This document shows positions 8,568 through 34,349 of a stretch of 56,679 bases of DNA, in pieces. The notes beneath the pieces were generated by a model. It did not search any database and was not told the DNA's origin. It saw only the letters and a list, made by a program, of their open reading frames with translations. How positions within the stretch are numbered: the stretch's first letter is position 1; each line of letters begins with the position of its first letter. Made by a program: the position numbers and the translations under genes. The DNA is from Nitrospirota bacterium (GTDB lineage Bacteria; Nitrospirota; Thermodesulfovibrionia; Thermodesulfovibrionales; UBA1546). Location: positions 1-56,679 of the forward strand of contig JACRGY010000040.1 in the NCBI GenBank assembly GCA_016212165.1. The letters run 5' to 3'.

Positions 8568-8575
8568 TATTTGAA

Positions 8576-10102
8576 TTATTCTACCGGCGGAAGGGTAATG
8601 CGAAAAGTGGTTCCATTGCCTTCGTGAGGTTCAAGCGTAAGGTCTCCGCCGTGTTCCTTGATTATGCCGCGGCTTATGGCAAGTCCAAGGCCTGTTCCTC
8701 TGTCCGGCTCTTTTGTTGTAAAGAACGAATCAAAAATCTTGTCCCTTATTTCCCTGGGAATGCCGCTGCCGGTATCACTGACATCAATCGTAACCCCGCC
8801 GTCCGGGTTTTTGCGCCCGCGTATGCTCAGCACCTGCTTCTCATTTCTTGGCTGGTTTTCCATTGCGTCTCTGGCATTGGTCATAAGATTCAGGAAAACC
8901 TGCTCAATCCAGCTTGGGTTTGCCAGCACATCCGGAAAATCAGGAGGGAAATGCATTTCAACCCCTATATCTCTTACTTTAAGCTGCTCTTCTATCAATA
9001 ACAATGCACCCTTAACAGAATCCGCAACATCTATCAGGTGAAAGTGGCTGCCGCCTGTCTCTTTCCGGGAAAAAACCCTCAAATGTTCAATAATGTCCTT
9101 GACCCTTGCTATCTGATTATCTATCTTGTTGAGGCTTCTTTCCACTACAGGTAATGACGGAATTTTCCCGTCCTTTGTGTCAACCAGCATTGAATGGTTA
9201 GTGCGGGAGATGCTGTTTAACAGCAGGTTGATTTCACGTGCTATCCCCATGGCCATTTCACCAAGTTGCGACAGACGGCCTGTATGAAATACATGGGCAT
9301 ATGCCTCCTCCAGCTCCTTTTGCACCCTCTTGGATTCGGTCATGTCTTCACAGATAGTGACAATGCCTATAGGCTCCCCGTCGTCGTTTTTCACGAGATC
9401 CGACATCAGATAAACCGGGAATATGCTTCCATCCTTTTTTATATTGAGACTTTCCCGCGCCCAGCCTTTTATCGCATTCATGTCCTCAAATTCTATGGGC
9501 CGGCCCATTCCTGGCGGAGAGAAAATCCTGACGCTCTTGCCAATAAGTTCCTCCTGCGCATATCCGTGCATCTTAGCCTCAGCCGGATTCGTATAACGGA
9601 TTACATTGTCACGGTCGGCAAATGTAATCCCTGTTTTGGTATTTTCAACAGCTTTCACCATCAGCAAAAGCCCCTCTTCTGCGCGTTTGCGCTTGATAGT
9701 CTCTTCTTTTAGTTCAGATGTCTGATCCTCCAGGCGCTTCGTAGTCGCTTCAAGTTTTCTCATGAGATTATTAAAAGAAACCGATATGTCATGGAGTTCA
9801 GCAGTGCTTTTCTGTACCTCCATCATATACATTTCTCCGGCCTCTGCCTTCTTCATATAACCGGAGAGCAGTATGAATTCACTGAAAACCTTCCTCAGAA
9901 TAATCAGGCCGGCAAAGGCAAGAACAAGCGTCAGCCCGATCAAGACCAGGTAAGAATTATCCGACCTTAAAGAGATATTTTCTTTATATAAAATATACAG
10001 GATGACAAAAGAAGGCAGCAAAAACAGCAGGGAAGCAATAACCGTAAGTTTATTTCGTAAGCCCTTGCCCTCTATACTCAATTTTTCAGGGATAGTCATC
10101 AT
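8576..10102 (-). CDS. PAS histidine-kinase-like protein lacking the phospho-acceptor His
   Basis: About 508 residues from ATG 10102, chosen because GGAG lies a few nt upstream; a longer frame to 10171 has no such site. Two membrane helices (LTVIASLLFLLPSFVILYI; LVLIGLTLVLAFAGLIIL), a HAMP-like linker with coiled coil, and a PAS domain (KTGITFADRDNVIRYTNPAE). The dimerisation region reads MAMGIAREINLLLNS where GxAHEINNPL is expected. The His is Arg (codon at 9236-9238 is CGT, one base from CAT). The ATPase domain is intact (DTGSGIPREIRDKIF; GTGLGLAISRGIIKEHGG). Probably an ATP-binding sensor that cannot autophosphorylate in the usual way, a partner for another kinase, or a decaying gene. Confidence 0.85.
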   Translation of the reverse strand: MMTIPEKLSIEGKGLRNKLTVIASLLFLLPSFVILYILYKENISLRSDNSYLVLIGLTLVLAFAGLIILRKVFSEFILLSGYMKKAEAGEMYMMEVQKSTAELHDISVSFNNLMRKLEATTKRLEDQTSELKEETIKRKRAEEGLLLMVKAVENTKTGITFADRDNVIRYTNPAEAKMHGYAQEELIGKSVRIFSPPGMGRPIEFEDMNAIKGWARESLNIKKDGSIFPVYLMSDLVKNDDGEPIGIVTICEDMTESKRVQKELEEAYAHVFHTGRLSQLGEMAMGIAREINLLLNSISRTNHSMLVDTKDGKIPSLPVVERSLNKIDNQIARVKDIIEHLRVFSRKETGGSHFHLIDVADSVKGALLLIEEQLKVRDIGVEMHFPPDFPDVLANPSWIEQVFLNLMTNARDAMENQPRNEKQVLSIRGRKNPDGGVTIDVSDTGSGIPREIRDKIFDSFFTTKEPDRGTGLGLAISRGIIKEHGGDLTLEPHEGNGTTFRITLPPVE

Positions 10103-10217
10103 TTTACTCCAAGGATTGTATCTTCTCATATACTTCTCAGTCAAACAGTTGCATATCTGCTTACAAATCATATCATAACAAAGTCACATTTGCCACAAAG
10201 AAAATTCAGGTGATAAA

Positions 10218-10763
10218 TTATACCATGCCCAGCCCTTTAATCCCATCCTCTATGTCTTTTCTTATAACATTTATCACATCCGGAAAATTCAGCGGCACCT
10301 CTCCGAGTTCCGGCCTTATCTCCTTTGTATTGATGGAATAAACCTTGCCATCCCGCCTGTGTTCATAGAGAAAATCAACCTGGGGATTGCCTGCGATTAA
10401 AACAATGAGGGTATCAGCAATATTACCGAGAGGCTTTCTGTCTATGTGGCTGTATTTAAAACAGGCAGATATCGTAGTGCCTTTGCCCTCTTTTGATTTT
10501 ATTGAGATATCTCCATCTGCCTCCCTTGCCGACTGGGCAAGGAATGAAAGCCCGAAACCGGTTTTTCTTGTTGTGCGCGTTGTATAAAAAGGGTCCAGGA
10601 CCTTTTTTATGAACTCGTCCGTAATACCCCTGCCGTTATCTTCAATTTCAACAGAGAGAAGGTCTTTGCCTGTATCCTCGGCTATTGTGATTTTTATGAT
10701 AGCTGCGCCCGCAGCTATAGAATTTTCCGCTATATCAAGTATATGTAGGGAAATGTCTTCCAT
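10218..10763 (-). CDS. GHKL-type ATPase (kinase-like, no His-containing domain)
   Basis: 181 residues. The N-terminal half is a HATPase fold with N box LHILDIAENSIAAGA, G1 EDNGRGITDEF and the kinase-style KTGFGLSFLAQSAREADG. The C-terminal half (from about residue 110) is not recognised. There is no HisKA domain or membrane segment. Proteins of this type accompany Hnd/Hyd hydrogenase-like operons in clostridia and sulfate reducers (recollection, not searched). Last gene of the nuo/hnd train, 5 nt after the PHP gene. Role likely regulatory. Confidence 0.75.
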   Translation of the reverse strand: MEDISLHILDIAENSIAAGAAIIKITIAEDTGKDLLSVEIEDNGRGITDEFIKKVLDPFYTTRTTRKTGFGLSFLAQSAREADGDISIKSKEGKGTTISACFKYSHIDRKPLGNIADTLIVLIAGNPQVDFLYEHRRDGKVYSINTKEIRPELGEVPLNFPDVINVIRKDIEDGIKGLGMV

Positions 10764-10768
10764 ATAAA

Positions 10769-11509
10769 TTAAAAACTAACCTTTCTTCCCTCAACGCCCT
10801 TGAGGGCCAGAGATAATTCCTCAAATGTGGAATGGTTCATCAGACATCTTGTTGTCCTTCTGCCTATGTCTTCTACCCTGTGCGCGTCAGATGAGGAAAT
10901 CCATGGGATATGACTGTATGCGCCGTATCTTATCAGCGCCTCTTTAAGTTTCAGCCTGCAGGAGATTTCCAGCGCATCAAATTTAATGTCAGGATGAATG
11001 AACCCGAGCTGCCCTATGATTCCAAACACATCCCTGTCAATATGGCTTGCTGCTGCAATACCGTTAAAGCTGTGTATCAAATCAACTATTTTATTCACTG
11101 AGAGGCTTGCAGCGCCTATCAGGAGCCTCTTATTAAACCCCAGGACCTCATTGTCTTCATTAACAACTACCTGCATGCCGAATTTATCCTCGTCATTTTC
11201 TCCTGCCTGAAGTTTCTCATAAACAACTTCCTGCATCTTAAGGACGCTTTCTGTGTCTTTGAAAAAACCAAGGACATGGACCTCTTCCGAAGAACTGATT
11301 TCCATTCCTGCAATAACAGTTATCCCTTTTTTCTTTGCAAGGCCTTTTGTTACTTCAACATTTTCAGCGGAATTATGGTCGCAGACAGCTATTATGTTTA
11401 TCCCGAGCGATGCAGCCTTTTCCACAATTCCCTTCGGCGTCATCGAAAGCTCTGCACACGGGGAAAGACATGTGTGAATATGAAGGTCTGCTACAAATTC
11501 TACCGGCAT
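10769..11509 (-). CDS. PHP-domain metal-dependent phosphoesterase
   Basis: 246 residues. PHP motifs: VADLHIHTCLSPCAELSM (HxH), IIAVCDHNSAENVE, ASHIDRDVFG and WISSSDAHRVEDIG, all metal ligands of the polymerase/histidinol-phosphatase superfamily. Predicted to hydrolyse a phosphoester; substrate unknown. Overlaps the preceding DRTGG gene by 10 nt, so it is co-translated within the regulatory block after nuoG. Confidence 0.82.
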   Translation of the reverse strand: MPVEFVADLHIHTCLSPCAELSMTPKGIVEKAASLGINIIAVCDHNSAENVEVTKGLAKKKGITVIAGMEISSSEEVHVLGFFKDTESVLKMQEVVYEKLQAGENDEDKFGMQVVVNEDNEVLGFNKRLLIGAASLSVNKIVDLIHSFNGIAAASHIDRDVFGIIGQLGFIHPDIKFDALEISCRLKLKEALIRYGAYSHIPWISSSDAHRVEDIGRRTTRCLMNHSTFEELSLALKGVEGRKVSF

Positions 11510-11841
11510 CTCAGGCCAAGGGTATAAAGCCTGCCAGCAAGTTCAAAGGCTGCAAGCGGGCTTGTCATTACCGGAATATTCTCTTCAGACGCCTTTTTCA
11601 GGGTATCGCCATCAGGCATCCTGTTATTCACAAGAATGATCCCTGCAAGGCCCTTTAAAGAAGCTACTGCCACGATATTAAGGTGGACCTGAAGCGTTAT
11701 CCAGACAGACCCTTCCTTTGCATTCCCGATTACATCAGACAGGAGGTCGCTCGCATAACCTCCGGTTACTTCCCTGTTTAAATCCATTCCCGGCGTCTTT
11801 ACTTCAAGAGAAAGGCTGTTAACAAGCTCCTGCAGTTTCAT
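11500..11841 (-). CDS. DRTGG-domain protein (second copy)
   Basis: 113-residue stand-alone domain of the DRTGG type: N-terminal LQELVNSLSLEVKTPG, central REVTGGYASDLLSDVIGNA and C-terminal NIPVMTSPLAAFELAGRLY. A paralogue of the protein at 12284-12640 (same order of motifs). AAGGAG precedes the ATG. Such domains occur as ligand-binding regulators beside CBS domains and in Hnd/Hyd operons; the ligand is unknown. Confidence 0.72.
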   Translation of the reverse strand: MKLQELVNSLSLEVKTPGMDLNREVTGGYASDLLSDVIGNAKEGSVWITLQVHLNIVAVASLKGLAGIILVNNRMPDGDTLKKASEENIPVMTSPLAAFELAGRLYTLGLRCR

Positions 11842-11852
11842 GGTTTACTCCT

Positions 11853-12287
11853 TCAGGCAGTTTTATTTAAATTTATAATAAACTCTAGTGTGGTCCCCTC
11901 TCCGACAACGGAATTTACAGTCAGTTTGTCAGTGCTTTTTTTGATATTCGGAAGCCCCATGCCGGAGCCGAACCCCATCTCCCTGATGTAATCAGGCGCA
12001 GTTGAATAACCTTCTGTCATTGCAAGTGCGATATCCGGAATGCCCGGCCCCATGTCCTGAACAATTATCTTTATCATCTCGGAGGTTATGGAATAGTGCA
12101 TCATGCCTGCCACGGCATATATAATCACATTCACTTCTGCCTCAAAGGCTGCTATGGCCGCCCTCCGGATAATATCAGGCTGGACGCCCATGCCTTCAAG
12201 TATTGCTTTTAAATTGCTTGATGCAACACCTGCCTTTGCAAAGTCCTTTCCCGTCAGAAAAAATACACCCTCTGTATTCCTATTCAT
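11853..12287 (-). CDS. RsbW-like anti-sigma/serine kinase ATPase
   Basis: 144 residues, GHKL fold without receiver or His: IIRRAAIAAFEAEVNVIIYA (N box), IIVQDMGPGIPDIALAM (G1) and GSGMGLPNIKKSTDKL (G2). It resembles RsbW/SpoIIAB-type serine kinases. Starts 4 nt inside the end of the upstream DRTGG gene (ATGA overlap) and precedes the second DRTGG gene. A sigma or anti-anti-sigma partner is not visible here, though an RsbRD-like protein is encoded upstream of dsrM. Confidence 0.75.
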   Translation of the reverse strand: MNRNTEGVFFLTGKDFAKAGVASSNLKAILEGMGVQPDIIRRAAIAAFEAEVNVIIYAVAGMMHYSITSEMIKIIVQDMGPGIPDIALAMTEGYSTAPDYIREMGFGSGMGLPNIKKSTDKLTVNSVVGEGTTLEFIINLNKTA

Positions 12288-12640
12288 TTATCTCTGTTAG
12301 AACGCCCCGGAAGCCCCTTCTCAAAAAGCCTGCCGCATGTGCCAAACATCGAAAAATCAGTCACAAGCAAAGGAATATTTTTTTCTTCTGCAAGAGAAAT
12401 TGTTTCCAGGTCAGGCCGTTTACCCTGAACAAATACTATTGCATTCATATCAGCCATCTCAGCGGTGCGTATAACCTGAGAATTGGTCAGGCCTGTTATC
12501 AGGAGGGAGTTGGTAATGGAAAATGCAAGAACATCGCTCATAAGGTCAGCGCAGTAGGCCCTCCCTATTTCAAGCTCCATATCGCCATTTTTTGAAAGCA
12601 CCACTGCATTAAGTATCGCTTTGATCTGGCCTAATTTCAT
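12284..12640 (-). CDS. DRTGG-domain protein (first copy)
   Basis: 118 residues: MKLGQIKAILNAVVLSKNG, RAYCADLMSDVLAFSITNS, NAIVFVQGKRPDLETISLAE and PLLVTDFSMFGTCGRLFEKG. Same fold and order as the protein at 11500-11841. Follows nuoG by 18 nt. Probably a small regulatory or ligand-binding partner of the flavoprotein module; function unproven. Confidence 0.72.
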   Translation of the reverse strand: MKLGQIKAILNAVVLSKNGDMELEIGRAYCADLMSDVLAFSITNSLLITGLTNSQVIRTAEMADMNAIVFVQGKRPDLETISLAEEKNIPLLVTDFSMFGTCGRLFEKGLPGRSNRDK

Positions 12641-12658
12641 GCTTTTGATAGATGCCTC

Positions 12659-15112
12659 TCAGACCTTTACCGCCTCTATCTTTACAGCATCTGTGTATGC
12701 TGTGCCGTTTTCTGAAAAATGCGTAAGCGCATTAACGCGCCCGTGCGGAAAATGAACTGACGTAAATACTGTCCCTGCCGGAACTGCATCTGAAACCTTT
12801 GCCTTCAGATAAACAGTGCCCCTTCTTGATGTCACCTTGACATGGCTGTTGTCGGATATTGCGTACTTTCCGGCATCTTCGTCATTTATCTCAAGGAATG
12901 CCTCTGAGACAACCAGGTCAAGGGCCTTGGATCTTGTTGACATGGTCCCTGAGTGCTGCAGGACATCTCTTGTCACGAATGCCAGCGGATATTCTGTGTC
13001 AGGCTCTTCTGCCGCTGCATAAGACACAACGTTAAAGGCCCTTTTATCTGATGCAGGTTGTTCCTGTATTGTGTTCCTGATTTCTTCTGAGATATCTTCA
13101 ATATTTCTGACGGCAATCTCTCTTCCCATAGATAAAGACAGGTTCCTAAGTATCTGCCAGTCAGGCAGGGACTGGCCCGGAGCATCAACTATCTTTTTTA
13201 ATTTCTGGGTTGCACCCTCAGCATTGATGAATGTGCCGTCTTTTTCAGCCCAGCTTGAAGCAGGAAGTACCACATGAGCCAGCTTCGCTGTCTCTGTTAA
13301 GGCAATATCCTGAACAACAAGCAGTTCAAGGGATTTAAGGTTCCCCATTATCTTTGAATTGTGCGGAAAAGCAGAAACAGGGTCTTCGCCCATTATGTAG
13401 AGCGCATGGAAAGAGCCGGATTTATACAGCATATCGAATATATTTTTATTGCCTGCCGCGCCCTGCCCCATGTTATACAGCCCGTATGTGTTTGCATATT
13501 CCGCGGGTATCTGCAGCGAACCTGCGTCCTCTCCCAGAAGGATTATCATATTCGAGGCAGCAAGCACCGTGTCAGCGCCTTTTGTGTTTTCTGTAAGGCT
13601 GACAGTAAAGGAGATCATCCTGCTCTTTGCCTTTGCAAGCATCTCTGCCGCAGCTGCAAGGTCTTCTCCGGATATGCCTGTAATCTTTGAGACCTTATCG
13701 GCAGTATAGTCCTTCAGGCTATTTTCAAACTCGGGGAAACCCGGGAACTTTGAGACAATCTCCCTGTTAAAAAGGCCCTTGTCTATAATAAGTTTCATTA
13801 ACCCGTTAAGAAATGCAACTGAGGTCCCCTGTTTCATTCTCAGATGGCTTAAACTGTGCCGTGTAAGCTTTGTCTCCCTTGAATCCGCCACAATCAGGTT
13901 TGAGCCTTCTCTCTTTGCCTGAAGTATATTAAGGCCGAAAACAGGGTGGGTAATGCTTATATCCGACTCTATTATCAGAATAACTTCCTTGCCCAAAGGC
14001 GCTTTCAGGTTTATCCGGTGTGTTTTCATCCCCAAAGCCTTATCCAGCGCCTTCTGGACCTTTGAATATCCAAAGGCAGCAGAAGAGTCAATATTATCTG
14101 AACCAATAACATTCAGCATGAATTTTTTCAGCATGAAGTTGTCTTCATTTGTGCACCTGTGAGAACCTATGGCGCCTACAGATTCCCTGCCATAGGAGCT
14201 TATAACGTATTTCAGGCTTTCGCTTATATATGTCAATGCCTCTTCCCATGTCGCAGGGACAAGGTTCCCCTCTTTTCTTACCATAGGCGTCTTAAGGCGG
14301 TTCTCGCTGTATATGTAATCAAACCCAAACCTGCCTCTTCCGCACAGGTTACCGTCGCTTCTGCCGTTATCTTCTTTGGCCCTTGACCTCAGTATCTTTC
14401 CTTCCCTTATTCCCAGTGTCAGGGTGCATCCGCAGCCGCAGAAAGGACAGATAGTGTCTTTTTCCTCGAGAAACCATGCACGCGCCTGAAACTTGAAGGG
14501 CTTGCTCAAAAGCGCGCCTGTAGGGCATATGTCTATACACTGCCCGCAGTAATCACATTCAAGGATTTCACCGAATGCAGGCTGAACAACTGTGGGGAAG
14601 CCCCTGCCGATAAATCCCAATGCGCCCCGGCCCTGATGCTCGGAGCATATACGCACACATTTGCCGCAGAGGATGCATCTGTTGGCAGTCAGTTCAACCA
14701 ATGGCCCCCTTACATCAGGAGGCATGTCTTTCCTGTGCCTTTTAAAACGGCCTTCGGGTTTGCCGTATTCATAGGCTATGTCCTGAAGGTCGCATTCGCC
14801 TGCCTTATCGCATACCGGGCAGTCCAATGGATGATGGATAAGTAAAAGTTCAAGTACCGTCTGACGCGCTTTTCTTAACTTTGGAGTGTCTGTTTTAACT
14901 ACCATGTTGGGAGCTGCAGGTGTCGAACATGAGGCAAAAAGCCTGGGCTGGCCTTCGACTTCAACAACACAGAGCCTGCATCCTCCGTAAGGCCTGAGCC
15001 TTTTGTCATAGCACATATTGGGTATCTTAATCCCGTTCATCTGGGCTGCCTTAAGAATTGTAGTGCCCTCTTCCACGGATATCTTTTTATTGTCAATTAT
15101 AAGGTCTACCAT
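12659..15112 (-). CDS. NuoG-like iron-sulfur/molybdopterin-fold subunit without catalytic Cys/Sec
   Basis: 817 residues. N-terminal [2Fe-2S] domain (MCYDKRLRPYGGCRLCVVEV), His-Cys3 [4Fe-4S] (HHPLDCPVCDKAGECDLQD), two ferredoxin clusters (CILCGKCVRIC; CDYCGQCIDICPTG), the fourth-cluster motif CPFCGCGCTLTLG, then a molybdopterin-oxidoreductase fold and a C-terminal beta-barrel domain. Where NAD-formate dehydrogenases carry Cys or Sec (in CxxHGPSVA) this protein reads DSSAAFGYSKVQ, so it is NuoG-like electron wiring rather than a formate dehydrogenase. It takes the position that HndD hydrogenase holds in hndABCD. No H-cluster motifs are present. Confidence 0.88.
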   Translation of the reverse strand: MVDLIIDNKKISVEEGTTILKAAQMNGIKIPNMCYDKRLRPYGGCRLCVVEVEGQPRLFASCSTPAAPNMVVKTDTPKLRKARQTVLELLLIHHPLDCPVCDKAGECDLQDIAYEYGKPEGRFKRHRKDMPPDVRGPLVELTANRCILCGKCVRICSEHQGRGALGFIGRGFPTVVQPAFGEILECDYCGQCIDICPTGALLSKPFKFQARAWFLEEKDTICPFCGCGCTLTLGIREGKILRSRAKEDNGRSDGNLCGRGRFGFDYIYSENRLKTPMVRKEGNLVPATWEEALTYISESLKYVISSYGRESVGAIGSHRCTNEDNFMLKKFMLNVIGSDNIDSSAAFGYSKVQKALDKALGMKTHRINLKAPLGKEVILIIESDISITHPVFGLNILQAKREGSNLIVADSRETKLTRHSLSHLRMKQGTSVAFLNGLMKLIIDKGLFNREIVSKFPGFPEFENSLKDYTADKVSKITGISGEDLAAAAEMLAKAKSRMISFTVSLTENTKGADTVLAASNMIILLGEDAGSLQIPAEYANTYGLYNMGQGAAGNKNIFDMLYKSGSFHALYIMGEDPVSAFPHNSKIMGNLKSLELLVVQDIALTETAKLAHVVLPASSWAEKDGTFINAEGATQKLKKIVDAPGQSLPDWQILRNLSLSMGREIAVRNIEDISEEIRNTIQEQPASDKRAFNVVSYAAAEEPDTEYPLAFVTRDVLQHSGTMSTRSKALDLVVSEAFLEINDEDAGKYAISDNSHVKVTSRRGTVYLKAKVSDAVPAGTVFTSVHFPHGRVNALTHFSENGTAYTDAVKIEAVKV

Positions 15113-15113
15113 T

Positions 15114-16982
15114 TTATGATTCCCCCTTTTTTGTTTCAGTTTCGGTTGTCACTCCGACTAATTCCGAAGGGTCGCCTTCAAAGTTGGCAGGCAGAATTTT
15201 TATAGACTTGAATTTGCATGCCTCATAACAGCTTCTGCAACGCACGCAAAGTTCCTGAATAATCTTGTGCGGCTTTTTCTTCTCGCCCATTATGGCCTTG
15301 GACGGGCACCCTCTCAAACAGGCCCCGCAGCCCTTGCACATTTTTTCGTCAATCCAGAAGGTAGTCAGGCTGCGGCATACGCCTGCCTTGCACCACTTGT
15401 GTTTTATATGGGATTCATATTCGTCCCTGAAGTATTTTATTGTTGTAAGCACCGGGTTCGGAGCTGTCTGTCCAAGGCCGCAAAGAGATGTAGAAATTAT
15501 GTCCCGGCCCAGGTCCAGAAGGGTATCTATATCTTCTTCCTTTCCCTTTCCTTCTGTAATGTCAGTAAGCATATCAAGCAGTATTTTTGTCCCCACCCTG
15601 CACGGCGTGCATTTGCCGCAGGATTCATCTGCCGTAAATTCAAGGAAGAATTTGGCTGTCCCGACCATGCAGGTATTATCATCCATGACAACCATTCCGC
15701 CTGAGCCTACAATTGCTCCTGTTGCAACGATATCTTCGTATGTTACAGGTATATCAAGGAGACTTTCAGGTATACAGCCTCCTGAAGGCCCGCCCATCTG
15801 CACGGCCTTGAATTTTCTTCCTTTCTTGGGTCCGCCACCTATGTCATATATGATAGTTCTCAAGGGAATTCCCATCGGGACCTCAACAAGCCCAACATTA
15901 TTTATAGCGCCTGTAAGTGCAAAGACCTTGGTGCCTGTGCTCTTCTCAGTGCCAAGGCTCCTGTACCAGTCAGAACCATTCAGAATTATAGGCGCTATCT
16001 GTGCAAGGGTCTCAACATTATTAAGCACCGAGGGTTTGTCCCACAATCCCTTATGAGCAGGGAATGGAGGCCTCGGCCTGGGCATCCCGCGCCTTCCCTC
16101 CAGGGAGCGCATAAGCGCAGTCTCTTCACCGCATACAAAAGCGCCTGCTCCAAGATAAATCTCAAGTTCAAAATCAAACCCTGTATCAAGAATATTTTTA
16201 CCAAGGAGGCCTGCCTCTGTAGCCTGATCTATTGCCAGATGGAGGCGTTTAACAGCCAAGGGGTATTCAGCCCTGACATAGATATAACCGTGATGCGCTC
16301 CTATGGCCCTGGCCCCTATAATCATGCCCTCTATTACTGAATGAGGGTCTGCCTCCATAACAGACCTGTCCATGAATGCACCGGGGTCTCCTTCATCGCC
16401 GTTACAGAGCATGTATTTGATATCGGATTTAACCTTGGATGCAAAGTCCCATTTCAGCCCTGTAGGAAAACCTGCGCCTCCCCTTCCTCTCAATCCGGAG
16501 TCTTTCACGACCTTGATTATCTCTTCAACAGTCATCTGTGTAAGCGCCTTTGCCGCTGCCTGATAACCGTCTCTGGAAATGTATTCTTCAATCTTTTCAG
16601 GGTCTATAAGCCCTTTGTTCCTTAAAACCCTTAATACCTGATGCTTGAAGAAAGGAATGTCTTTCATCAGAGGTATTGCTGTTTTTTTCTCGGGTTCTTT
16701 AAACATCAGTTTCTCGTAAGGCCTGCCTTTGAGAAAATGCTCTTCAACTAATCTGGGGATTTCTTCAACTGTTAATTTTTGATAAAAGATTTCATCCGGA
16801 TAAACCGACAGGACAGGGCCTTCAGCGCAATAGCCGTTGCATCCTGTCAGGACTATCTTTATTTCTTCATCCAGCCCCCTTTTTTGAATTTCCTCCCGAA
16901 GGGCGTCTCTGACTTTATTTGTTCCGCTGGCAACACAGCCTGTTCCTGCACATAACATTAAATTTGCACGAAACTTTTCCAT
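15114..16982 (-). CDS. NuoF/HndC-type NADH-binding flavoprotein with extra Fe-S domains
   Basis: 622 residues, the NADH/FMN subunit. N-terminal thioredoxin-like [2Fe-2S] domain (LMLCAGTGCVASGTNK; LTGCNGYCAEGP), NuoF core with GLRGRGGAGFPTGLKW (FMN/NADH) and CNGDEGDPGAFMDR, an SLBB domain, the N3 cluster CGKCTPCRVGTK, and a C-terminal two-cluster ferredoxin (CKGCGACLRGC; CVRCRSCYEAC). This arrangement is that of HndC/HydB in flavin-based bifurcating enzymes, not of simple complex I NuoF. AGGAGG 6 nt before ATG. Adjacent to the NuoG-like gene (1-nt gap). Confidence 0.92.
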   Translation of the reverse strand: MEKFRANLMLCAGTGCVASGTNKVRDALREEIQKRGLDEEIKIVLTGCNGYCAEGPVLSVYPDEIFYQKLTVEEIPRLVEEHFLKGRPYEKLMFKEPEKKTAIPLMKDIPFFKHQVLRVLRNKGLIDPEKIEEYISRDGYQAAAKALTQMTVEEIIKVVKDSGLRGRGGAGFPTGLKWDFASKVKSDIKYMLCNGDEGDPGAFMDRSVMEADPHSVIEGMIIGARAIGAHHGYIYVRAEYPLAVKRLHLAIDQATEAGLLGKNILDTGFDFELEIYLGAGAFVCGEETALMRSLEGRRGMPRPRPPFPAHKGLWDKPSVLNNVETLAQIAPIILNGSDWYRSLGTEKSTGTKVFALTGAINNVGLVEVPMGIPLRTIIYDIGGGPKKGRKFKAVQMGGPSGGCIPESLLDIPVTYEDIVATGAIVGSGGMVVMDDNTCMVGTAKFFLEFTADESCGKCTPCRVGTKILLDMLTDITEGKGKEEDIDTLLDLGRDIISTSLCGLGQTAPNPVLTTIKYFRDEYESHIKHKWCKAGVCRSLTTFWIDEKMCKGCGACLRGCPSKAIMGEKKKPHKIIQELCVRCRSCYEACKFKSIKILPANFEGDPSELVGVTTETETKKGES

Positions 16983-17045
16983 CCCATGCCTCCTATATAT
17001 GAATCATTTTATGTTCTATATACAACGAATGAGTGTCATAGATTC

Positions 17046-17109
17046 TGTCATTCCGGGCTTGACCCGGAATCCAGTTCCTTTCTGGATTCCCGCTTTCGCG
17101 GGAATGACG
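17046..17109. repeat. Dispersed TGTCATTCC repeat between hndB-like and nuoF-like genes
   Basis: TGTCATTCCGGGCTTGACC at the left and CGCGGGAATGACG at the right, enclosing nested hairpins (CCGGGCTTGACCCGG; GGATTCCCGCTT...). It lies in the 183-nt gap inside the gene train, so it could form a transcript hairpin between the two genes. Confidence 0.75.
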
Positions 17110-17165
17110 CATTTTTCTTGAGATAACCGTTTTCATTATTAATTTATTTTCACCGAGCACATTTT

Positions 17166-17549
17166 TTAATATGTTGTCTCACTTCCAATTACCAGTGCAT
17201 ATTTTTCTACAGGATTGCCGCCGAGTATATGCTCTTTAAATATTTCCCTTATCTTGTCATCGCTCAGGTCGCAGTACTTTACAGGCGCCTGATTCATTAT
17301 CTCTACAGTAGCCAGCGGCTCGCGCGCACAGAGGCCTGCACAACCGGAGGTAGTAACTATAATATCGCTTGTGTTGGCCTTTGCTATCTCATCCATTAAT
17401 GCAGTCATGACATTTCTCGCTCCTGCCGCAATCCCGCATGTGCCCATATGGACTGTCACCTTTGCCTTGTAGCCGCCTTCCCTTAGCGTGAAATCCGCCT
17501 TATGTTTTTCCTTAATCTTCTGAAGGTCTTCTATTTTCAACCTGGTCAT
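17166..17549 (-). CDS. HndB-like thioredoxin-fold [2Fe-2S] subunit
   Basis: 127 residues. VHMGTCGIAAGARNVMTAL and TTSGCAGLCAREPLATVEI match HndB of NADP-reducing hydrogenases as I recall that family. I count three cysteines in the cluster region (one in the first motif, two in the second), so cluster ligation is not fully certain. Between the REC-NuoE gene (1-nt gap) and the nuoF-like gene. Cytoplasmic; presumed structural or electron-transfer subunit of the complex. Confidence 0.82.
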   Translation of the reverse strand: MTRLKIEDLQKIKEKHKADFTLREGGYKAKVTVHMGTCGIAAGARNVMTALMDEIAKANTSDIIVTTSGCAGLCAREPLATVEIMNQAPVKYCDLSDDKIREIFKEHILGGNPVEKYALVIGSETTY

Positions 17550-17550
17550 A

Positions 17551-18489
17551 TTACCCCTCCTTCTCCGCCATTTCTTCCATCTCTGAGGCAGATACTGCCT
17601 CTAACATTGCCGGTTCATACTGGCCTATAATCTCCAACGCCTTCTTTGGAGTCATGGCGCCGTGTGTTTCCTGGTCAATGACCATTACAGGCGCAAGCCC
17701 GCAGGCCCCGAGGCAGCGAACACCTTCCAGGGAAAATTTTCTGTTTTCCGTAGTATCTCCGATGTTTATCTTTAAGGCATCTGTAATTTTACTCAGGACG
17801 CGTTCAATCCCTTTAACGTAACATGCAGTGCCAAGGCATACCCTGATATTGTGGTCGCCCCTCGGCTTCATCGTAAAAAAGGAATAGAAGGATACAACAC
17901 TGTGCACTTCTGCTACCGGTATATTTAATCCCTTTGAAATTTTCTTCTGGACTACAGGAGGAAGATACCCTACTATTTCCTGTGCGCGCTGAAGAACAGG
18001 TATTAAAGCGCCCTGCTTTCGCCTTAAGTCAGCAATAACTCTCTCCAGCTCTGCTTCCATTGCAGGAGGGAATTCCTCTTTAACCTTCTTTTCCTCAGGT
18101 TTTTCAGGTTTCCTGCCCTTTATCCACTCCGCGGCCCTTTCAGTAACATCTAAAAGCACCGAAGGAGTAAAGGGCTTTGGCACATAGTCAATTATTCCTA
18201 ATTCAAGCGCTTCCTTTATAGTATCCTGCGACGGATATCCTGTAATGATGACAATCCCTATGGAAGGCTTTGTTTTTTTTATCCACCTGATAAGGGTTAT
18301 CCCGTCAACTTCAGGCATCTTAAGGTCAGTGAAAACAAGGTCATAGCTGTTTTGCTCTATCTTCGTAATCGCTTCTCTTCCGCCCAGAGCGCCTTCAACA
18401 TCATATCCCTCTGCTTTAAGCACCCTCTCGGCGCTTCTTATGACTATAAGCTCATCGTCAACAATTAAAATCCTGGGTTTTTCCGCCAT
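17551..18489 (-). CDS. Response-regulator receiver fused to NuoE/HndA [2Fe-2S] subunit
   Basis: 312 residues in two domains. Residues 5-120 are a complete receiver: acidic pair Asp11/Asp12, phospho-acceptor Asp55 in LVFTDLKMP, Thr83 and Lys105. After a charged linker (125-145), residues 145-300 are the 24-kDa NADH dehydrogenase subunit, with all four cluster cysteines: Cys218 and Cys223 (CLGTAC), Cys259 and Cys263 (CLGAC). The helical front (LIPVLQRAQEIVGYLP) and HSVVSFYSFFTM are typical NuoE. It is the only nuoE in this locus, so it should be the working subunit. The fusion suggests phosphorylation-dependent control or docking of the complex. I know of no standard family with this architecture. 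Confidence 0.92.
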   Translation of the reverse strand: MAEKPRILIVDDELIVIRSAERVLKAEGYDVEGALGGREAITKIEQNSYDLVFTDLKMPEVDGITLIRWIKKTKPSIGIVIITGYPSQDTIKEALELGIIDYVPKPFTPSVLLDVTERAAEWIKGRKPEKPEEKKVKEEFPPAMEAELERVIADLRRKQGALIPVLQRAQEIVGYLPPVVQKKISKGLNIPVAEVHSVVSFYSFFTMKPRGDHNIRVCLGTACYVKGIERVLSKITDALKINIGDTTENRKFSLEGVRCLGACGLAPVMVIDQETHGAMTPKKALEIIGQYEPAMLEAVSASEMEEMAEKEG

Positions 18490-18530
18490 AAACTACCCCC
18501 TATATAAAATTCAAAATTATTCATTTTGTA

Positions 18531-19298
18531 TTAAACCGTTATAGGCTGGACCCTCGCCAGCCAGAGAAGCCACCCTTCGCTCAGGTTATCCCTGATTAAT
18601 GCGCTCATGGCTGTATTGGCATTTGTATTTGTCTCTTTGACCATGCCGTTCATCGGTGAAACAAGGTCCTCTGTCTGACCGGAACCCGATAAGATTTTCC
18701 CGAAGGACGCTCCTGCGGTAACCATCTTAAGCCCCTCAGGAATATCAATATACATAAGCTGTCCGCTGAGCAGCCAGTATCTTATGTCAAAGCCGATCTC
18801 CCAGAGCCCATCCTTTATGGGCCTGGCCCATGTCCCTTCTTTATAAAAGATAACAGGATTCTGCGTGTCCCTGAGAGATACAATGTCGTTCCTGAATTCA
18901 TCAATGAACGCCTTTCTTAAAATCCATCCCCTCTGGTCAAAAACCTTACTGGCAACATTCATCATAAAATCAGGAGTGAAGGGCTTCTCTATGTATTCGA
19001 ATGCGCCGAGCCTTACAGATTCTTTGGCATCGTCCAATGTCGGGTAACCTGTAATTATGACCACGTCCAGCTTGGGCTGTATAATCTTTGACTCTTTTAA
19101 TACAGTAATGCCGTTAACATCAGGCAGCCTTATGTCTGAAATCAGAAGATCGAATTCCTCATTAGAGATTCTCTTGATAGCGTCTTCGCCCTTGTCTACA
19201 GTTATGATATTGTAGCCTTCAGCGCCGAGGATTCTTTTACAGCTCAGAGTTACTACAGGGTCATCATCTAATACTAATATCTTCCCCTTTTTTTCCAT
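18531..19298 (-). CDS. Receiver fused to a GcvH-like (lipoyl-fold) domain lacking the lipoyl lysine
   Basis: 255 residues. A receiver at 5-120 has all active residues (Asp11, Asp12, Asp55 in LLISDIRLP, Thr83, Lys105). Residues 158-250 follow the glycine-cleavage H-protein pattern: WEIGFDIRYWLLSGQLMYID, then VTAGASFGKI, DLVSPMNGMVKETNTN and EGWLLWLARV. Where H protein has ESVKA with the lipoylated Lys, this reads SGSGQTED, so it cannot carry lipoate there. AGGAGG precedes the ATG. Upstream (19299-19577, 279 nt) is an AT-rich gap after the NtrC-like gene in which I see no clear promoter. A possible adaptor; function unknown. Confidence 0.82.
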   Translation of the reverse strand: MEKKGKILVLDDDPVVTLSCKRILGAEGYNIITVDKGEDAIKRISNEEFDLLISDIRLPDVNGITVLKESKIIQPKLDVVIITGYPTLDDAKESVRLGAFEYIEKPFTPDFMMNVASKVFDQRGWILRKAFIDEFRNDIVSLRDTQNPVIFYKEGTWARPIKDGLWEIGFDIRYWLLSGQLMYIDIPEGLKMVTAGASFGKILSGSGQTEDLVSPMNGMVKETNTNANTAMSALIRDNLSEGWLLWLARVQPITV

Positions 19299-19577
19299 AA
19301 TTAAGCCTCCTTTCTGTATTTCAATAAAGTTCTAAACCCCGTTCCCAAACAAATATACATTAATCCATACAACTAAATCTACAATTATTAAGATAGCAAT
19401 AATAATACCAGTTTATAAAACCCAAACAAATCAACAGATTGAAGAATTTCAATGGCTTGTAACCTTTGATTTTGTATAATTATTAAATACAGTTTTTCTC
19501 ATGTAATCGGGTGCAAAGCCAATAGAATCAAGGGTTGAGGCTGTGTATGATTTTTATATACAGCTAATAAATAAAAA

Positions 19578-20978
19578 CTATCTTGTCTTTGCCGGCACTC
19601 TGGAGATATTGTGTTTTTTGAGGAGGGCATGGAAATTCGTGCGTTGCATTCCAACGTCAAGCGCAGCCCTTGATATGTTCCACTCATTTCTTTTCAGGGC
19701 ATCCACAAGAAAAGCCTTTTCAATGTCTTCTATTGATTTCAGGCGAAGGCCTTTTTTCCTGCCCTTCAGTTCGACGATGGTCCTGGGAACTCCTTCACCA
19801 TCGTCTGCCACGCCAGGCGGAGGAAGATGCGCTGGCTGCAGGGTCTTGCCCTGACAGAGTATTATGGCCCTCTGAATTGTATTTTCCAACTCCCTGACAT
19901 TGCCGGGCCACTCATAATTGATAAGCGCCTTCATTGTCTCTGCAGAGATATGTGTAACGTCCTTTTCTGTCTCCTTGCTGTATTTCTGAAGAAAGTGGTA
20001 TGCGAGCATGGGGATATCTTCTTTCCTGTCTCTTAAAGGCGGGATGCTTACAGGAAAGACATTAAGCCTATAAAAAAAATCTTCCCTGAATGTGCCTTCC
20101 TTAGTCATGGCCTCCAGATTTTTGTTTGTTGCGACAATGAACCTCATATCACACTTTAGGGGATTCTTGCCTCCGAGCGGCCTGAATTCTTTCTCCTGAA
20201 GCGCACGCAGGAGTTTAGCCTGAGTTGAAAGATTTAGATTACCTATCTCATCAAGGAACAGGGAGCCTTCATCAGCAAGCTCCATCAGCCCTTTTCTGTT
20301 TTCTATTGCGCCTGTGAAAGCGCCTTTAACATGCCCGAATAATTCAGACTCTATCAATGCATCAGGGATGGTTCCGCAATCAACCACTATAAAAGGCCTG
20401 TCTTTCCTTGGGCTGTTATAGTGGATGGCCCTGGCAATCAATTCCTTTCCTGTCCCGCTTTCTCCGGTTATGAGAACTGTGCTTCCTGTAGAGGCCACCT
20501 TTGCGATGAGATGGAAAACCCGCTGCATTGTTTTTGATGTGCCGATAATATTTTCGAGTTTATACTGTTCTGTAAGTTCGCTTCTGAGCCTGAGATTTTC
20601 AAGGAGAAGGCGCTTTCTTTCAAGAGACCTTGAGACAAGTATTATCAGTTCATTGGGCCTGAAGGGTTTTTCTATATAATCAAAGGCCCCGAGCTTCATC
20701 GCATTTACAGCAGTAGCCACAGTGCCATAGCCGGTTATGAGTATTACCTCAGTGTCGGGCCAGCCCTCCCTTACCCTCCTGAGAACTTCTATGCCGTCCA
20801 TATCAGGCATCTTCAGGTCTGTCAGCACAAGGTCAAAGGCCTCATTTTCCAGCAGCCTTAAACCATCTGCTCCGCTTTTAACTGCCGTAACATCATAACC
20901 TTCCGGTTCGAGCGCCCTTTGACAGCTGATCCTTACTATATCTTCATCATCAATGACAAGGATCCTGGGCCTATCCAT
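19578..20978 (-). CDS. NtrC-family sigma-54 response regulator
   Basis: 466 residues: receiver (Asp in LVLTDLKMP), AAA+ domain with Walker A GESGTGKE, the sigma-54 loop GAFTGA, Walker B LFLDEIGNL and NVFPVSIPPLRDRKEDIP, then a Fis-type helix-turn-helix (EWNISRAALDVGMQRTNFHA). It activates sigma-54 promoters when phosphorylated. The receiver is closely similar to its three neighbours (shared IVxxSCxRAL and DMDGIEVLRRVxEGWP segments). Targets are not visible. Confidence 0.93.
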   Translation of the reverse strand: MDRPRILVIDDEDIVRISCQRALEPEGYDVTAVKSGADGLRLLENEAFDLVLTDLKMPDMDGIEVLRRVREGWPDTEVILITGYGTVATAVNAMKLGAFDYIEKPFRPNELIILVSRSLERKRLLLENLRLRSELTEQYKLENIIGTSKTMQRVFHLIAKVASTGSTVLITGESGTGKELIARAIHYNSPRKDRPFIVVDCGTIPDALIESELFGHVKGAFTGAIENRKGLMELADEGSLFLDEIGNLNLSTQAKLLRALQEKEFRPLGGKNPLKCDMRFIVATNKNLEAMTKEGTFREDFFYRLNVFPVSIPPLRDRKEDIPMLAYHFLQKYSKETEKDVTHISAETMKALINYEWPGNVRELENTIQRAIILCQGKTLQPAHLPPPGVADDGEGVPRTIVELKGRKKGLRLKSIEDIEKAFLVDALKRNEWNISRAALDVGMQRTNFHALLKKHNISRVPAKTR

Positions 20979-20986
20979 TCTGCCTG

Positions 20987-21364
20987 CTACTGATTTGCCC
21001 TGCGCGCAACAGCATTATTTACTACTGTTAAAATCTGTTCCGGCGTAAAAGGCTTTTCAATATAATCAAACGCCCCCAGTTTTATGGCCTTCACAGCAGT
21101 CTCGACCGTCTGATAACCTGTTATAATAATGACCTCAATGGCAGGCCATCCCTCCTTTACCCTCCGGAGGACTTCTATGCCGTCCATATCAGGCATCTTC
21201 AGGTCAGTCATTACAATGTCAAAGGCTTCATTTCCAAGCAGAGTTATGCCATCTGCTCCTCTTCTGACCGTCTTGACATTATAGCCTTCGGGAGTGAGCG
21301 CCCTTTTGCAGCTCAAGAGCACTATGTCTTCATCATCTACTACAAGGATATTGCCTTTATTCAT
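20987..21364 (-). CDS. Stand-alone receiver-domain protein
   Basis: 125 residues, CheY-like: DDEDIVLLSCKRAL, phospho-Asp in DIVMTDLKMPDMDG, IIITGYQT, YIEKPFTPEQ. Nearly a paralogue of the NtrC-like receiver (identical EVLRRVKEGWP-type helix). GGAGG before the ATG. It sits directly after the heme-sensor kinase gene and could be a shuttle or sink for phosphoryl groups between the kinase and the fused receivers. Confidence 0.9.
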   Translation of the reverse strand: MNKGNILVVDDEDIVLLSCKRALTPEGYNVKTVRRGADGITLLGNEAFDIVMTDLKMPDMDGIEVLRRVKEGWPAIEVIIITGYQTVETAVKAIKLGAFDYIEKPFTPEQILTVVNNAVARRANQ

Positions 21365-21482
21365 AGCAAACCTCCGTCCCGCAATGAAAATTGCAAAATG
21401 TAAAATAAAAAATTGAGACAGAAAAATTATCCGCTAATTTTAAATTTTGATATTTGTATTTTGAATTTTGCATTGTTGTCTG

Positions 21483-23063
21483 TCATCCCTCATAAAAAGG
21501 GAGCCTCACAAAGAAACTTGTACCTTTTCCAATTGTGCTTCTCACGCGTATTCTGCCCCCGTGGTCCTGAATAATACCGTGACTTACAGCAAGGCCAAGC
21601 CCGGTGCCCTTGCCAACAGGTTTTGTCGTAAAGAAAGGCTCGAAAAGTTTTGGAATGTCTTTTTCATTTATGCCAGGGCCTGAATCATTAAATTCAACCT
21701 CCACAAAGGGAACGCCGTTTTCATCAACCTTTCGTGTGGTAACGGTAAAGGTCCCTTTTCCTTCCATTGCATCTGCTGCATTGATAATCATATTTAAAAA
21801 TACCTGCTGAATCTGGGATGCATCGGCCTTTATGGAAGAGAGAGACTCATCAAAATTCAGAACTATCTTGATATTAAAAAAGTCTGCCTTATGCCGCACC
21901 ATGTTTAAAGAACTGTTTACTATATCATTTACATTTATAGAGCTTTTCTCTGCCGAGCTTGCCCTTGCAAAGCCGAGCAGCCCTTTTATGATATTCGAAC
22001 ATCTGTTGGCCTGTTCAATAATGACCTCAACATCTTCCCGTTCCTGGCTGCCCTCCGGAAATTTCTTAAGCAGGAGATGGCCAAAGGTAACGATGCCTGT
22101 TAAGGGGCTGTTTATCTCATGAGCCACACCCGCTGCCATCCTTCCAAGTGATGCAAGTTTTTCAGAATGTATGAGTTTTGCCTGCGCCTTGCGGATCTCT
22201 TCGGTTTTCTCTTCAACCTTTTTCTCAAGGGTATTGCCCCATTCAACAAGCTCGTCCTTTGCCTTCTTGAGGTCAAATGTCATGGCGTTAAATGCCGTTG
22301 CAAGCTCGCCCATCTCATCCCTGGTATCTATCTTCACGGTATGGTCCAGTTCACCCGCAGCCACTCTCTCCATGCCATGCGTAAGTACACTGAGAGGGGT
22401 GGATACAAGGTTCCAGAGTATCGTACAAAGGACCACAGAGAGCAGGCATATAAAACCAAGCACATAGGCTGTTATAGCCAGTTCCTGTTTTTTTACGGCC
22501 TTATCGAGAAGGGATAAAGATATATCAGCCTCTGTAAATCCGAGAATGGCGGTCCCGATGGAATGCACATGGCAGGAAGATGTATAACATGCAGGTTCAT
22601 TATAAATGGGCTGCAGAAGATTCAGTATCCTGTACCCATCCTTGTCTTTTTTTATAGACCAGCTTGGCATCTCTACTGCCTTGCGGGAATTAGAATGGCA
22701 GAGCATGCAGACAGATTCATTTTTGCCCAGCATGGTGCCCTTCTCTTCTTTTACCGAAGAATATGCAATCTTGCCTCTGCCATCGAACATCCTTATCTTA
22801 ACAATCCCCTCGGCTGAACCTATAGCCTCAACAGTCTGCTGTATCAGGAGCTGCTGAAAGGTGAGCATTCCGTAACGCGTGCTTTTTTCTACAAAGTCTA
22901 CAAAAGAATGGCCGTATTTTACAGAATTTCTGAGAAGTTCCTTCTCCTGAAAATGTATAAGAAAATACCAGAAGATAGTGCTTCCCACCACCATCAGAGT
23001 GCCTATGGTAATAATTAATTTCCCTGTCAGGGAATAGATGGTTTTCTTTACATGCGCTCTCAC
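21483..23063 (-). CDS. Membrane histidine kinase with periplasmic c-type heme motifs
   Basis: 526 residues. TM1 at about 15-36. An extracytoplasmic sensor (37-195) contains CMLCH (Cys119-His123) and a second Cys site, CYTSSCH (Cys159-His165, CX4CH). TM2 at about 198-218, then HAMP, a coiled coil, HisKA with AAGVAHEINSPLTGIV and a HATPase with DSGPGINEKDIPKLFEPFF and GTGLGLAVSHGIIQDHGG. Predicted redox or gas sensor through covalent heme. First gene of the train that runs through four receivers and the nuo/hnd genes; GTG start with no Shine-Dalgarno. Confidence 0.88.
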   Translation of the reverse strand: MRAHVKKTIYSLTGKLIITIGTLMVVGSTIFWYFLIHFQEKELLRNSVKYGHSFVDFVEKSTRYGMLTFQQLLIQQTVEAIGSAEGIVKIRMFDGRGKIAYSSVKEEKGTMLGKNESVCMLCHSNSRKAVEMPSWSIKKDKDGYRILNLLQPIYNEPACYTSSCHVHSIGTAILGFTEADISLSLLDKAVKKQELAITAYVLGFICLLSVVLCTILWNLVSTPLSVLTHGMERVAAGELDHTVKIDTRDEMGELATAFNAMTFDLKKAKDELVEWGNTLEKKVEEKTEEIRKAQAKLIHSEKLASLGRMAAGVAHEINSPLTGIVTFGHLLLKKFPEGSQEREDVEVIIEQANRCSNIIKGLLGFARASSAEKSSINVNDIVNSSLNMVRHKADFFNIKIVLNFDESLSSIKADASQIQQVFLNMIINAADAMEGKGTFTVTTRKVDENGVPFVEVEFNDSGPGINEKDIPKLFEPFFTTKPVGKGTGLGLAVSHGIIQDHGGRIRVRSTIGKGTSFFVRLPFYEG

Positions 23064-23071
23064 TAATGGAA

Positions 23072-23101
23072 TTTATACTAAATTTAGCACCTATTATGCA
23101 A
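23072..23101 (-). promoter_or_regulatory. Putative promoter of the heme-kinase gene train
   Basis: On the minus strand TTGCAT (23101-23096), 18-nt spacer, TATAAA (23077-23072). The GTG start lies 8 nt after the -10 box, so the transcript could start at or next to the start codon. Visual match only. Confidence 0.45.
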
Positions 23102-23251
23102 GCAAAAACTGACAGGCATATCAGGATAGCTCCGGAAAAGTTGTGATAGGACTAAAATCTGAGGGGGTCATTTGCTTGCGAGACCAATAAAAAAGGGCTG
23201 CATCGGGCCCTGATCTGCCCGCCAAAATATTTCCTGATTATATTTTTAATC

Positions 23252-23260
23252 TGTTATAAT
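23252..23260 (+). promoter_or_regulatory. Extended -10 promoter upstream of scpA
   Basis: TGTTATAAT; the ATG begins at 23278, giving a leader of about 10 nt without a Shine-Dalgarno. The 214-nt gap 23064-23277 otherwise holds the divergent kinase promoter and a weak hairpin near 23190. Confidence 0.5.
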
Positions 23261-23277
23261 ATAGGCCACTTTAGCCG

Positions 23278-24030
23278 ATGGAAGATATTTATAATATAAA
23301 AATCCCTGTATTTGAAGGCCCCTTTGACCTTTTACTGCACCTCATCAAAGAAAATAAGCTGGATATTTACGACATACCCATTGCCTTGATTACCGGCCAG
23401 TACCTCCAATACATCGAGATAATGAAAGAACTCAACCTCGAAATTGCAGGTGAATTCCTTGTTACGGCCGCAACGCTTATCCATATTAAATCAAGGATGC
23501 TGCTTCCGGCTGATGAAGAGGCTCCCGCAGAAGAGCAGGAGGATCCAAGACTTGAACTTGTCCAGAGGCTGCTTGAATATCAGGCCTTCAAGGACGCTGC
23601 GCTCGGCCTGAGGGAAAAAGAAGAGGAGTGGATGAATATATTCCGCAGGGAACCGGTAAAAGAAAAAGAGGCTGAGACAGAAAAAGAAGAAGAAGGAGAA
23701 CTGTATCTCTTTGATGTAAACCTGTTTGACCTCCTCGGCGCATTCAAGGGCATGCTGGATAAGGCGCCGCCGGAGGTTGTTGAAATAACAAGAGAGACCC
23801 TGACTGTAAAAGACAGGATATCCCTGATAATGGAGATGCTTGAAAATCAGGACACTATAAGATTTGAAGACCTTTTCAAAGAAGACAGGACACGGCCTCA
23901 GTTAATTGTCACATTCATCGCACTCCTTGAACTTATAAGACTCGGCCTTGTCAGGGTATATCAGGAAAAAGATTTTGGGAATATCTGGGTTATAAATCCA
24001 CAGAAAAGAGAGATACAGGCCCCGGCATAA
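23278..24030 (+). CDS. scpA: Segregation and condensation protein A
   Basis: Kleisin subunit that bridges SMC heads in the bacterial condensin. 250 residues, normal length: N-terminal FEGPFDLLLHLIKENKLDIYDIPIALITGQYL, an acidic middle rich in Glu and Lys, and a C-terminal winged helix (LIVTFIALLELIRLGLVRVYQ). scpB does not follow, contrary to the common scpAB pair; instead come an amidase and an actin-like gene. Confidence 0.93.
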   Translation: MEDIYNIKIPVFEGPFDLLLHLIKENKLDIYDIPIALITGQYLQYIEIMKELNLEIAGEFLVTAATLIHIKSRMLLPADEEAPAEEQEDPRLELVQRLLEYQAFKDAALGLREKEEEWMNIFRREPVKEKEAETEKEEEGELYLFDVNLFDLLGAFKGMLDKAPPEVVEITRETLTVKDRISLIMEMLENQDTIRFEDLFKEDRTRPQLIVTFIALLELIRLGLVRVYQEKDFGNIWVINPQKREIQAPA

Positions 24031-31443: not shown

Positions 31444-31457
31444 AGTCATTACCTCCT
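31439..31457. repeat. 19-bp direct repeat, copy at the dsrP start
   Basis: The plus-strand 19-mer AGCATAGTCATTACCTCCT contains the dsrP ribosome site and start codon. The same 19 bp recur exactly at 31509-31527 inside the last codons of dsrO, 70 nt away. Confidence 0.9.
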
Positions 31458-31487
31458 GTTATGTGGCAAATACCGAGCACTGTATGA

Positions 31488-34347: not shown

Positions 34348-34349
34348 CG

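Follow-up and report, generated by a model that had tools for sequence, protein, structure and literature searches.

The window analysed here, the whole 56,679-nucleotide stretch of contig JACRGY010000040.1 (assembly GCA_016212165.1) from a Nitrospirota bacterium, carries on its minus strand a gene (17551..18489) in which a response-regulator receiver domain (REC) and a NuoE-type electron-transfer subunit share one reading frame. The open reading frame runs from an ATG at 18489 to 17551 without an internal stop and specifies 312 amino acids, of which Pfam assigns residues 7-114 to Response_reg (E = 1.2e-28) and residues 149-291 to 2Fe-2S_thioredx (E = 2e-48), both far over the curated cut-offs; orthologues show the same layout. 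The receiver (18148..18471) has the acidic pair Asp11 and Asp12, the phospho-acceptor Asp55 (codon 18327-18325), Thr83 at the Thr/Ser position, and Lys105. The NuoE/HydC domain (17617..18045), identified by Pfam, AlphaFold, and its cysteines, consists of a four-helix bundle and a thioredoxin-like [2Fe-2S] domain with the cluster cysteines Cys218, Cys223, Cys259, and Cys263. Between the two Pfam domains, residues 115-148 (18046..18147) comprise the end of REC helix 5, a flexible linker, and the start of the NuoE helical bundle, and AlphaFold confidence falls below a pLDDT of 50 only at residues 126-138 (window about 18114-18076), so that the low-confidence linker forms the junction, as expected from a preliminary description that had placed it around 18090. 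That description, made from the letters of the sequence, had also read the gene as an intact receiver (Asp55, Thr83, Lys105) joined in frame to an intact NuoE with four cysteines, and Pfam and alignments bear this out. The AlphaFold model has two folded parts (pLDDT 79.6, pTM 0.45), and the packing of REC against NuoE is predicted without confidence. Among PDB structures, the NuoE domain comes nearest to subunit C of a bifurcating NiFe-hydrogenase (7t2r), and the best 60 PDB matches include no solved chain spanning both domains.

Three genes follow directly downstream on the same strand: a 127-residue thioredoxin-like, [2Fe-2S]-ferredoxin-like protein, here called Fd127 (17166..17549), recognised by its sequence and as a neighbour in most orthologous loci, in which His34, Cys38, Cys70, Cys74, and His107 are invariant; a 622-residue NuoF/HydB/BfuB-type subunit (15114..16982), assigned by Pfam, alignment to 7t2r, and conserved ligands; and an 817-residue BfuA-type subunit with NuoG-like Fe-S and formate-dehydrogenase-like molybdopterin domains (12659..15112), assigned by Pfam, alignment, and folds. 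The gene order REC-GcvH, REC-NuoE, Fd127, NuoF, NuoG is found in most loci, and the grouping of REC-NuoE, NuoF, and NuoG holds at 39-50% identity. The Bfu family is defined by a BfuBC core with diagnostic B2 ligands (Schut et al., 2022; PMC9304861). The B subunit here has an FMN and an NAD site, an N-terminal [2Fe-2S] cluster, and two C-terminal [4Fe-4S] clusters (PF01512, PF10589, and Fer4 over the Pfam cut-off; SLBB and several two-cluster Fer4 models under it), and it aligns over its full length with 7t2r_B, its best PDB relative. The B2 ligands Cys438, His525, Cys531, and Cys536 are invariant in the 83-87 sequences compared (His525 in 83/83), and position 476, where Cys or Thr is allowed, is Thr in most. 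The B1, B3, and B4 cysteines are kept in every complete B subunit sampled except one, which departs at two B3/B4 cysteines, and the B5 [2Fe-2S] ligands Cys11, Cys16, Cys48, and Cys52 are present in the window protein and in 103 of 114 orthologues. The C subunit in turn has the four cysteines of the C1 [2Fe-2S] cluster in 108/108 fusions. Together, B and C carry ligands for the full bifurcating set of cofactors. The preliminary description spoke of an NADH-oxidising complex; rather than as a plain NADH dehydrogenase, the complex is better identified from its ligands as a cytoplasmic, HydABC-like NAD(H)/ferredoxin module of the Bfu family, for which bifurcation is predicted. As a separate observation, 11 of the 114 orthologous B subunits have His11 and Gly16 at two B5 positions in an N-terminal domain that resembles Fd127, and, among the loci examined for gene order, those in which Fd127 is not encoded separately seem to belong to this group.

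The A subunit departs from its closest folds at the catalytic centre. Its best PDB folds are of the formate dehydrogenase type (9ktl, 6tg9, and 7vw6), and its Fe-S cysteines are conserved; Gly348 (codon 14071-14069), however, occupies the Sec/Cys ligand position in 79/79 sequences, and Tyr349 replaces the adjoining His in 76/79, so the complex is not an ordinary formate dehydrogenase. The lost ligand alone is no proof of an inactive A-subunit site, since some molybdenum enzymes have no protein ligand to the metal at all and an FdhD gene adjoins the A subunit in a few loci (L109 and L113, and by resemblance L136); the fold is retained, and a pterin may still be bound. A bifurcating hydrogenase is rejected in view of the lack of a hydrogenase domain in the A subunit, of a hydrogenase catalytic subunit in the complex, and of any PF02906 (FeFe) match in the genome. 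Respiratory complex I is rejected as well: membrane-arm genes are absent from the window, and the complex I of this genome lies on contig C2 with its own NuoEFG. Among the loci examined, no additional catalytic subunit occurs consistently on the 3' side of NuoG.

Regulatory genes, all on the minus strand, flank the complex on both sides. Upstream, next to REC-NuoE and conserved beside it, is a second receiver fusion, to a GcvH-like domain (18531..19298; Pfam and conserved residues), in which D11, D12, D55, and K105 are present in 77/77 sequences and T83 in 76/77, and from which the lipoyl lysine is absent. Beyond it lie an NtrC-type sigma-54 response regulator of REC-AAA-Fis layout (19578..20978; Pfam), a stand-alone CheY-like receiver (20987..21364; Pfam and alignment), and a membrane histidine kinase (21483..23063; Pfam and motifs), which lies close to the fusion gene in many of the orthologous loci, is missing or distant in some, and is a candidate for the cognate kinase. 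Its His box is invariant, and its sensor region carries two putative haem-binding motifs, CxxCH in 39/43 and Cx4CH in 42/43 sequences, which make it a candidate haem-based redox sensor. Downstream of the complex are a DRTGG-domain protein (12284..12640; Pfam), an anti-sigma-factor-like HATPase protein (11853..12287; Pfam), a second DRTGG-like protein (11500..11841; a match under the cut-off together with conserved synteny), and, from profile matches, a PHP-domain protein (10769..11509), a second HATPase protein (10218..10763), and a second sensor histidine kinase of PAS-HATPase type (8576..10171), the final gene of the run, whose membership is uncertain. Outside the class Thermodesulfovibrionia, in family f23, a close but unfused NuoE is encoded within a complex I operon alongside DRTGG, HATPase, PHP, and Fd127 genes, and in locus L178 the DRTGG/HATPase/PHP set flanks an FeFe-hydrogenase Bfu module with an unfused NuoE. 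Since these genes also accompany unfused Bfu modules, the receiver is the added element. L178 additionally encodes, at 9545-12607 and adjoining the FeFe-hydrogenase, a 1020-residue fusion of NuoF to an NfnB/GltD-like pyridine-nucleotide oxidoreductase. A search of the 19298-19578 gap for a sigma-54 promoter returned one site with two mismatches, with matches across the window not above chance, and Rfam found no RNA element in 8000-24000.

The source genome is a fragmented MAG of 202 contigs with 8% contamination, which might raise the suspicion that an assembly error or a chance in-frame join produced the fusion. We consider that probability negligible, because the complete fusion recurs, at 54-99% identity, in independently assembled relatives of the same genus, family, and order, and 108 distinct fusion sequences are available. 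When 396 Nitrospirota genomes were searched with a profile, full-length orthologues (39-99% identity) came from more than 100 of them, single-contig genomes included, and the assembly error named in the preliminary description as a refuting possibility is thereby excluded. All of these genomes belong to Thermodesulfovibrionia, none of the sampled Nitrospirota outside that class has the fusion, and some lineages within it, such as genus g14, lack it. In a scan of genome contigs from 84,980 species, the best 80 of 400 loci carry the fusion, nearly all of them titled as Nitrospirota-type MAGs; plasmid records hold no place matching the whole query, and viral contigs yielded a 119-residue match to the receiver alone. 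Fusions in other phyla may nevertheless exist. In a tree of 40 fused and 40 unfused NuoE domains, which are short and include some long branches, the fused domains fall on one side of a branch with 98/94 support, and the fused group was recovered in 200/200 bootstrap trees. The fusions form one clade, and therefore REC and NuoE were joined once and not separated again within the sample. The sequences thus show a fusion that is real, old, and of single origin, with the functional residues of both halves kept. One locus (L144, 8633-9493) has a solitary REC-NuoE gene without NuoF or NuoG neighbours.

Conservation within the fusions bears on what the receiver does. In 92 distinct fusions there is no variation at Asp11, Asp12, Asp55, Thr83, Lys105, or any of the four cysteines; when the most divergent loci are added, bringing the number to 108, the cysteines are still present in all and each REC catalytic residue in 104-107. 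Three lineages (L136, L137, and L138) account for most of the exceptions, with receivers degenerate at Asp55 and at other positions, and they retain the fusion and its NuoF/NuoG neighbours despite this. The capacity for phosphorylation is therefore strongly constrained in most of the class and dispensable for the fusion as such, and phosphorylation is not needed always. In five genomes, second copies of the complex (L181-L185) keep the receiver and the NuoE bundle and have lost the [2Fe-2S] domain; two of these paralogues have Glu at the phospho-Asp position, and in L181 NfnAB-like genes lie upstream. Because all five keep both parts in the absence of the [2Fe-2S] domain, REC and bundle behave as a unit. 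In L186 (7331-8182), the HATPase gene of the cluster is fused to a receiver that closely resembles that of the neighbouring REC-NuoE, which ties receiver, HATPase, and NuoE into one circuit. This fusion and the REC-bundle copies lacking the [2Fe-2S] domain both lend support to a regulatory role for the receiver.

In the published model of Bfu enzymes, C1 moves between FMN and B2 and thereby gates the ferredoxin against the mid-potential branch (PMC9304861), and importance has likewise been ascribed to the HydC [2Fe-2S] cluster in HydABC. Our preferred reading, to which we assign a probability of roughly one half, is that REC-NuoE is a C subunit acting as a two-component output, so that a Bfu enzyme comes under direct control. 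The histidine kinase of the cluster, with its two putative haem motifs, would phosphorylate Asp55, which would make the enzyme complex itself the output of the two-component system. Phosphorylated REC would most plausibly bias the C1 gate or the docking of the C subunit, because the receiver adjoins the bundle that holds the domain of C1, and ferredoxin-coupled electron flow could then be raised or lowered in a matter of seconds with no need for transcription. The same kinase would also be answered by the REC-GcvH protein and the NtrC-type regulator. We infer the effect on activity, the direction of information flow, and the pairing of kinase and receiver, the last from gene neighbourhood. The linker, predicted to be flexible, and a model (pTM 0.45) with no fixed REC-NuoE packing count against this reading, as do the three lineages with a dead phospho-site, and any allosteric route from REC to NuoE is hypothetical. 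The suggestion in the preliminary description that phosphorylation could gate or localise an NADH-oxidising complex is plausible given the conserved REC residues and a histidine kinase in the cluster. The extension to a class-wide phosphorylation switch on the bifurcation gate, setting NADH/ferredoxin coupling rather than gene expression, is tentative, and we regard it as somewhat doubtful.

That the fusion has been kept across the class suggests that a sensor kinase either controls NADH/ferredoxin chemistry directly or learns from it, and the second possibility, the main rival, deserves to be set against the first. The complex could be a redox sensor in which C1, charged by NADH or ferredoxin, alters how REC takes up, keeps, or releases phosphate, or else blocks the kinase; the true outputs would then be the NtrC-type regulator and REC-GcvH. 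The Gly found in place of Sec/Cys in 79/79 A subunits would suit a device in which turnover of a third substrate has ceased, and the cluster supplies a sensor kinase and three other REC proteins. There is also a precedent in FixT of Caulobacter, a single-domain, Fe-S-binding receiver that feeds back on its kinase (PMC7078487). FixT resembles REC-NuoE in combining a receiver and an Fe-S cluster with a link to redox state; in FixT, however, the cluster is bound by the receiver itself, and the protein stands outside any oxidoreductase. We hold such a reversal of flow to be fairly unlikely, since the electron-transfer and NAD-site features are all conserved, as for an enzyme carrying real flux, the A subunits of Bfu enzymes and complex I commonly have no Mo ligand and yet are not sensors, and fewer than half of the sampled loci have the NtrC gene close to the fusion.

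The receiver might instead be a docking or assembly module that holds the complex to the kinase, a cell site, REC-GcvH, or the HATPase proteins, with phosphorylation optional. The dead phospho-site in L136, L137, and L138, the flexible linker, the paralogues that have lost C1 but retain REC and bundle, and the REC-HATPase fusion of L186 all speak for this, but docking alone hardly explains why the five catalytic residues are near-universal down to about 45% identity, and we find it distinctly improbable. The three lineages with degenerate receivers could even suggest a passenger without present function; an ancient, single fusion that no sampled member of the clade has split or lost, and whose active site is invariant elsewhere, leaves this a very slight likelihood. 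Direct control of the enzyme through the C subunit remains the reading we prefer.

Among known systems, the closest are the Bfu enzymes of A. mobile (NiFe-HydABCSL, 7t2r), T. maritima (HydABC, 7p5h), and A. woodii (HydABC), which share with this complex the FMN, NAD site, and B1-B5 ligands of BfuB, including the unique B2 His, a BfuC with C1, and a BfuA with NuoG-type cluster motifs. They differ in that the complex described here has an N-terminal receiver on BfuC, two-component genes of its own, a pterin domain without Sec/Cys, and no hydrogenase domain or subunit. The A. woodii cluster, with its HydD and HydE, is matched here by a HydD-like protein and a HATPase gene; in A. woodii the HATPase gene hydE is said to lie outside the enzyme and possibly to serve assembly or signalling (PMC3315566). 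Response regulators and kinases are not mentioned in the searched text of the Bfu family paper (PMC9304861). NAD-dependent formate dehydrogenases of the FdsABG/MeFDH1 type share the fold of the A subunit, whereas the complex here has Gly for Sec/Cys, Tyr for His, and a B subunit with extra bifurcation clusters. The Nitrospirota Nuo-Bfu/complex I of family f23 has a close NuoE and shares the neighbouring DRTGG, HATPase, PHP, and Fd127 genes but has no receiver, a NuoG of 721 aa, and linked membrane-arm genes. Response regulators of the CheB, PleD, and RpfG types likewise join an N-terminal REC to a C-terminal enzyme part, but REC-NuoE has as its output a single electron-transfer subunit from a redox complex of several subunits. 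The earlier remark that no described enzyme has this architecture stands: neither REC-NuoE nor a kinase-controlled bifurcating enzyme is described in the literature searched, and, as far as this literature, the PDB, and plasmid records can tell, REC-NuoE is a variant of the Bfu family without a published description.

Known enzymes regulate electron bifurcation through redox state, the binding of nucleotides, and the motion of domains. With a receiver in the gating subunit, present class-wide, an environmental sensor would have direct access to bifurcation chemistry. Such control is also easily testable, because acetyl phosphate or beryllofluoride can switch receivers in vitro, giving a handle on the role of the C1 gate, and homologues with an intact REC, with a dead REC, without the cluster, and without the fusion offer a natural comparison panel.

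Any such control would act within a genome that has several NADH-linked complexes. The statement that this is the only nuoE here is correct for the window but not for the genome, which has six full-length NuoE genes including REC-NuoE. The other five lie in or next to a complex I operon (C2), two NuoEFG sets linked to CODH (C37 and C160), the genes of an NAD-formate dehydrogenase (C89), and a NuoEF pair (C136). A separate nuoE used in its place had been offered as grounds for abandoning the proposal; five exist, four beside complexes of their own and one in the NuoEF pair, and this leaves the role of the fusion unrefuted, since the others sit mostly with their own partners and REC-NuoE has its own NuoF and NuoG and is therefore not redundant. 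With several NuoE present, control through the receiver would touch one of several NADH-linked complexes and not NADH oxidation in the whole cell. The C89 set (NuoE-NuoF-FdhA) is of the selenocysteine type and separate from the window complex: its formate dehydrogenase alpha gene (L127, 10727-13450) carries a TGA codon in frame, precisely where selenocysteine is expected. On contig C140 of the same genome (L170), a match to a NiFe/NiFeSe hydrogenase large subunit contains two TGA codons. Within the window itself, what appears by eye to be an operon for a DsrMKJOP-like membrane complex (30271-35339) suggests sulfur metabolism.
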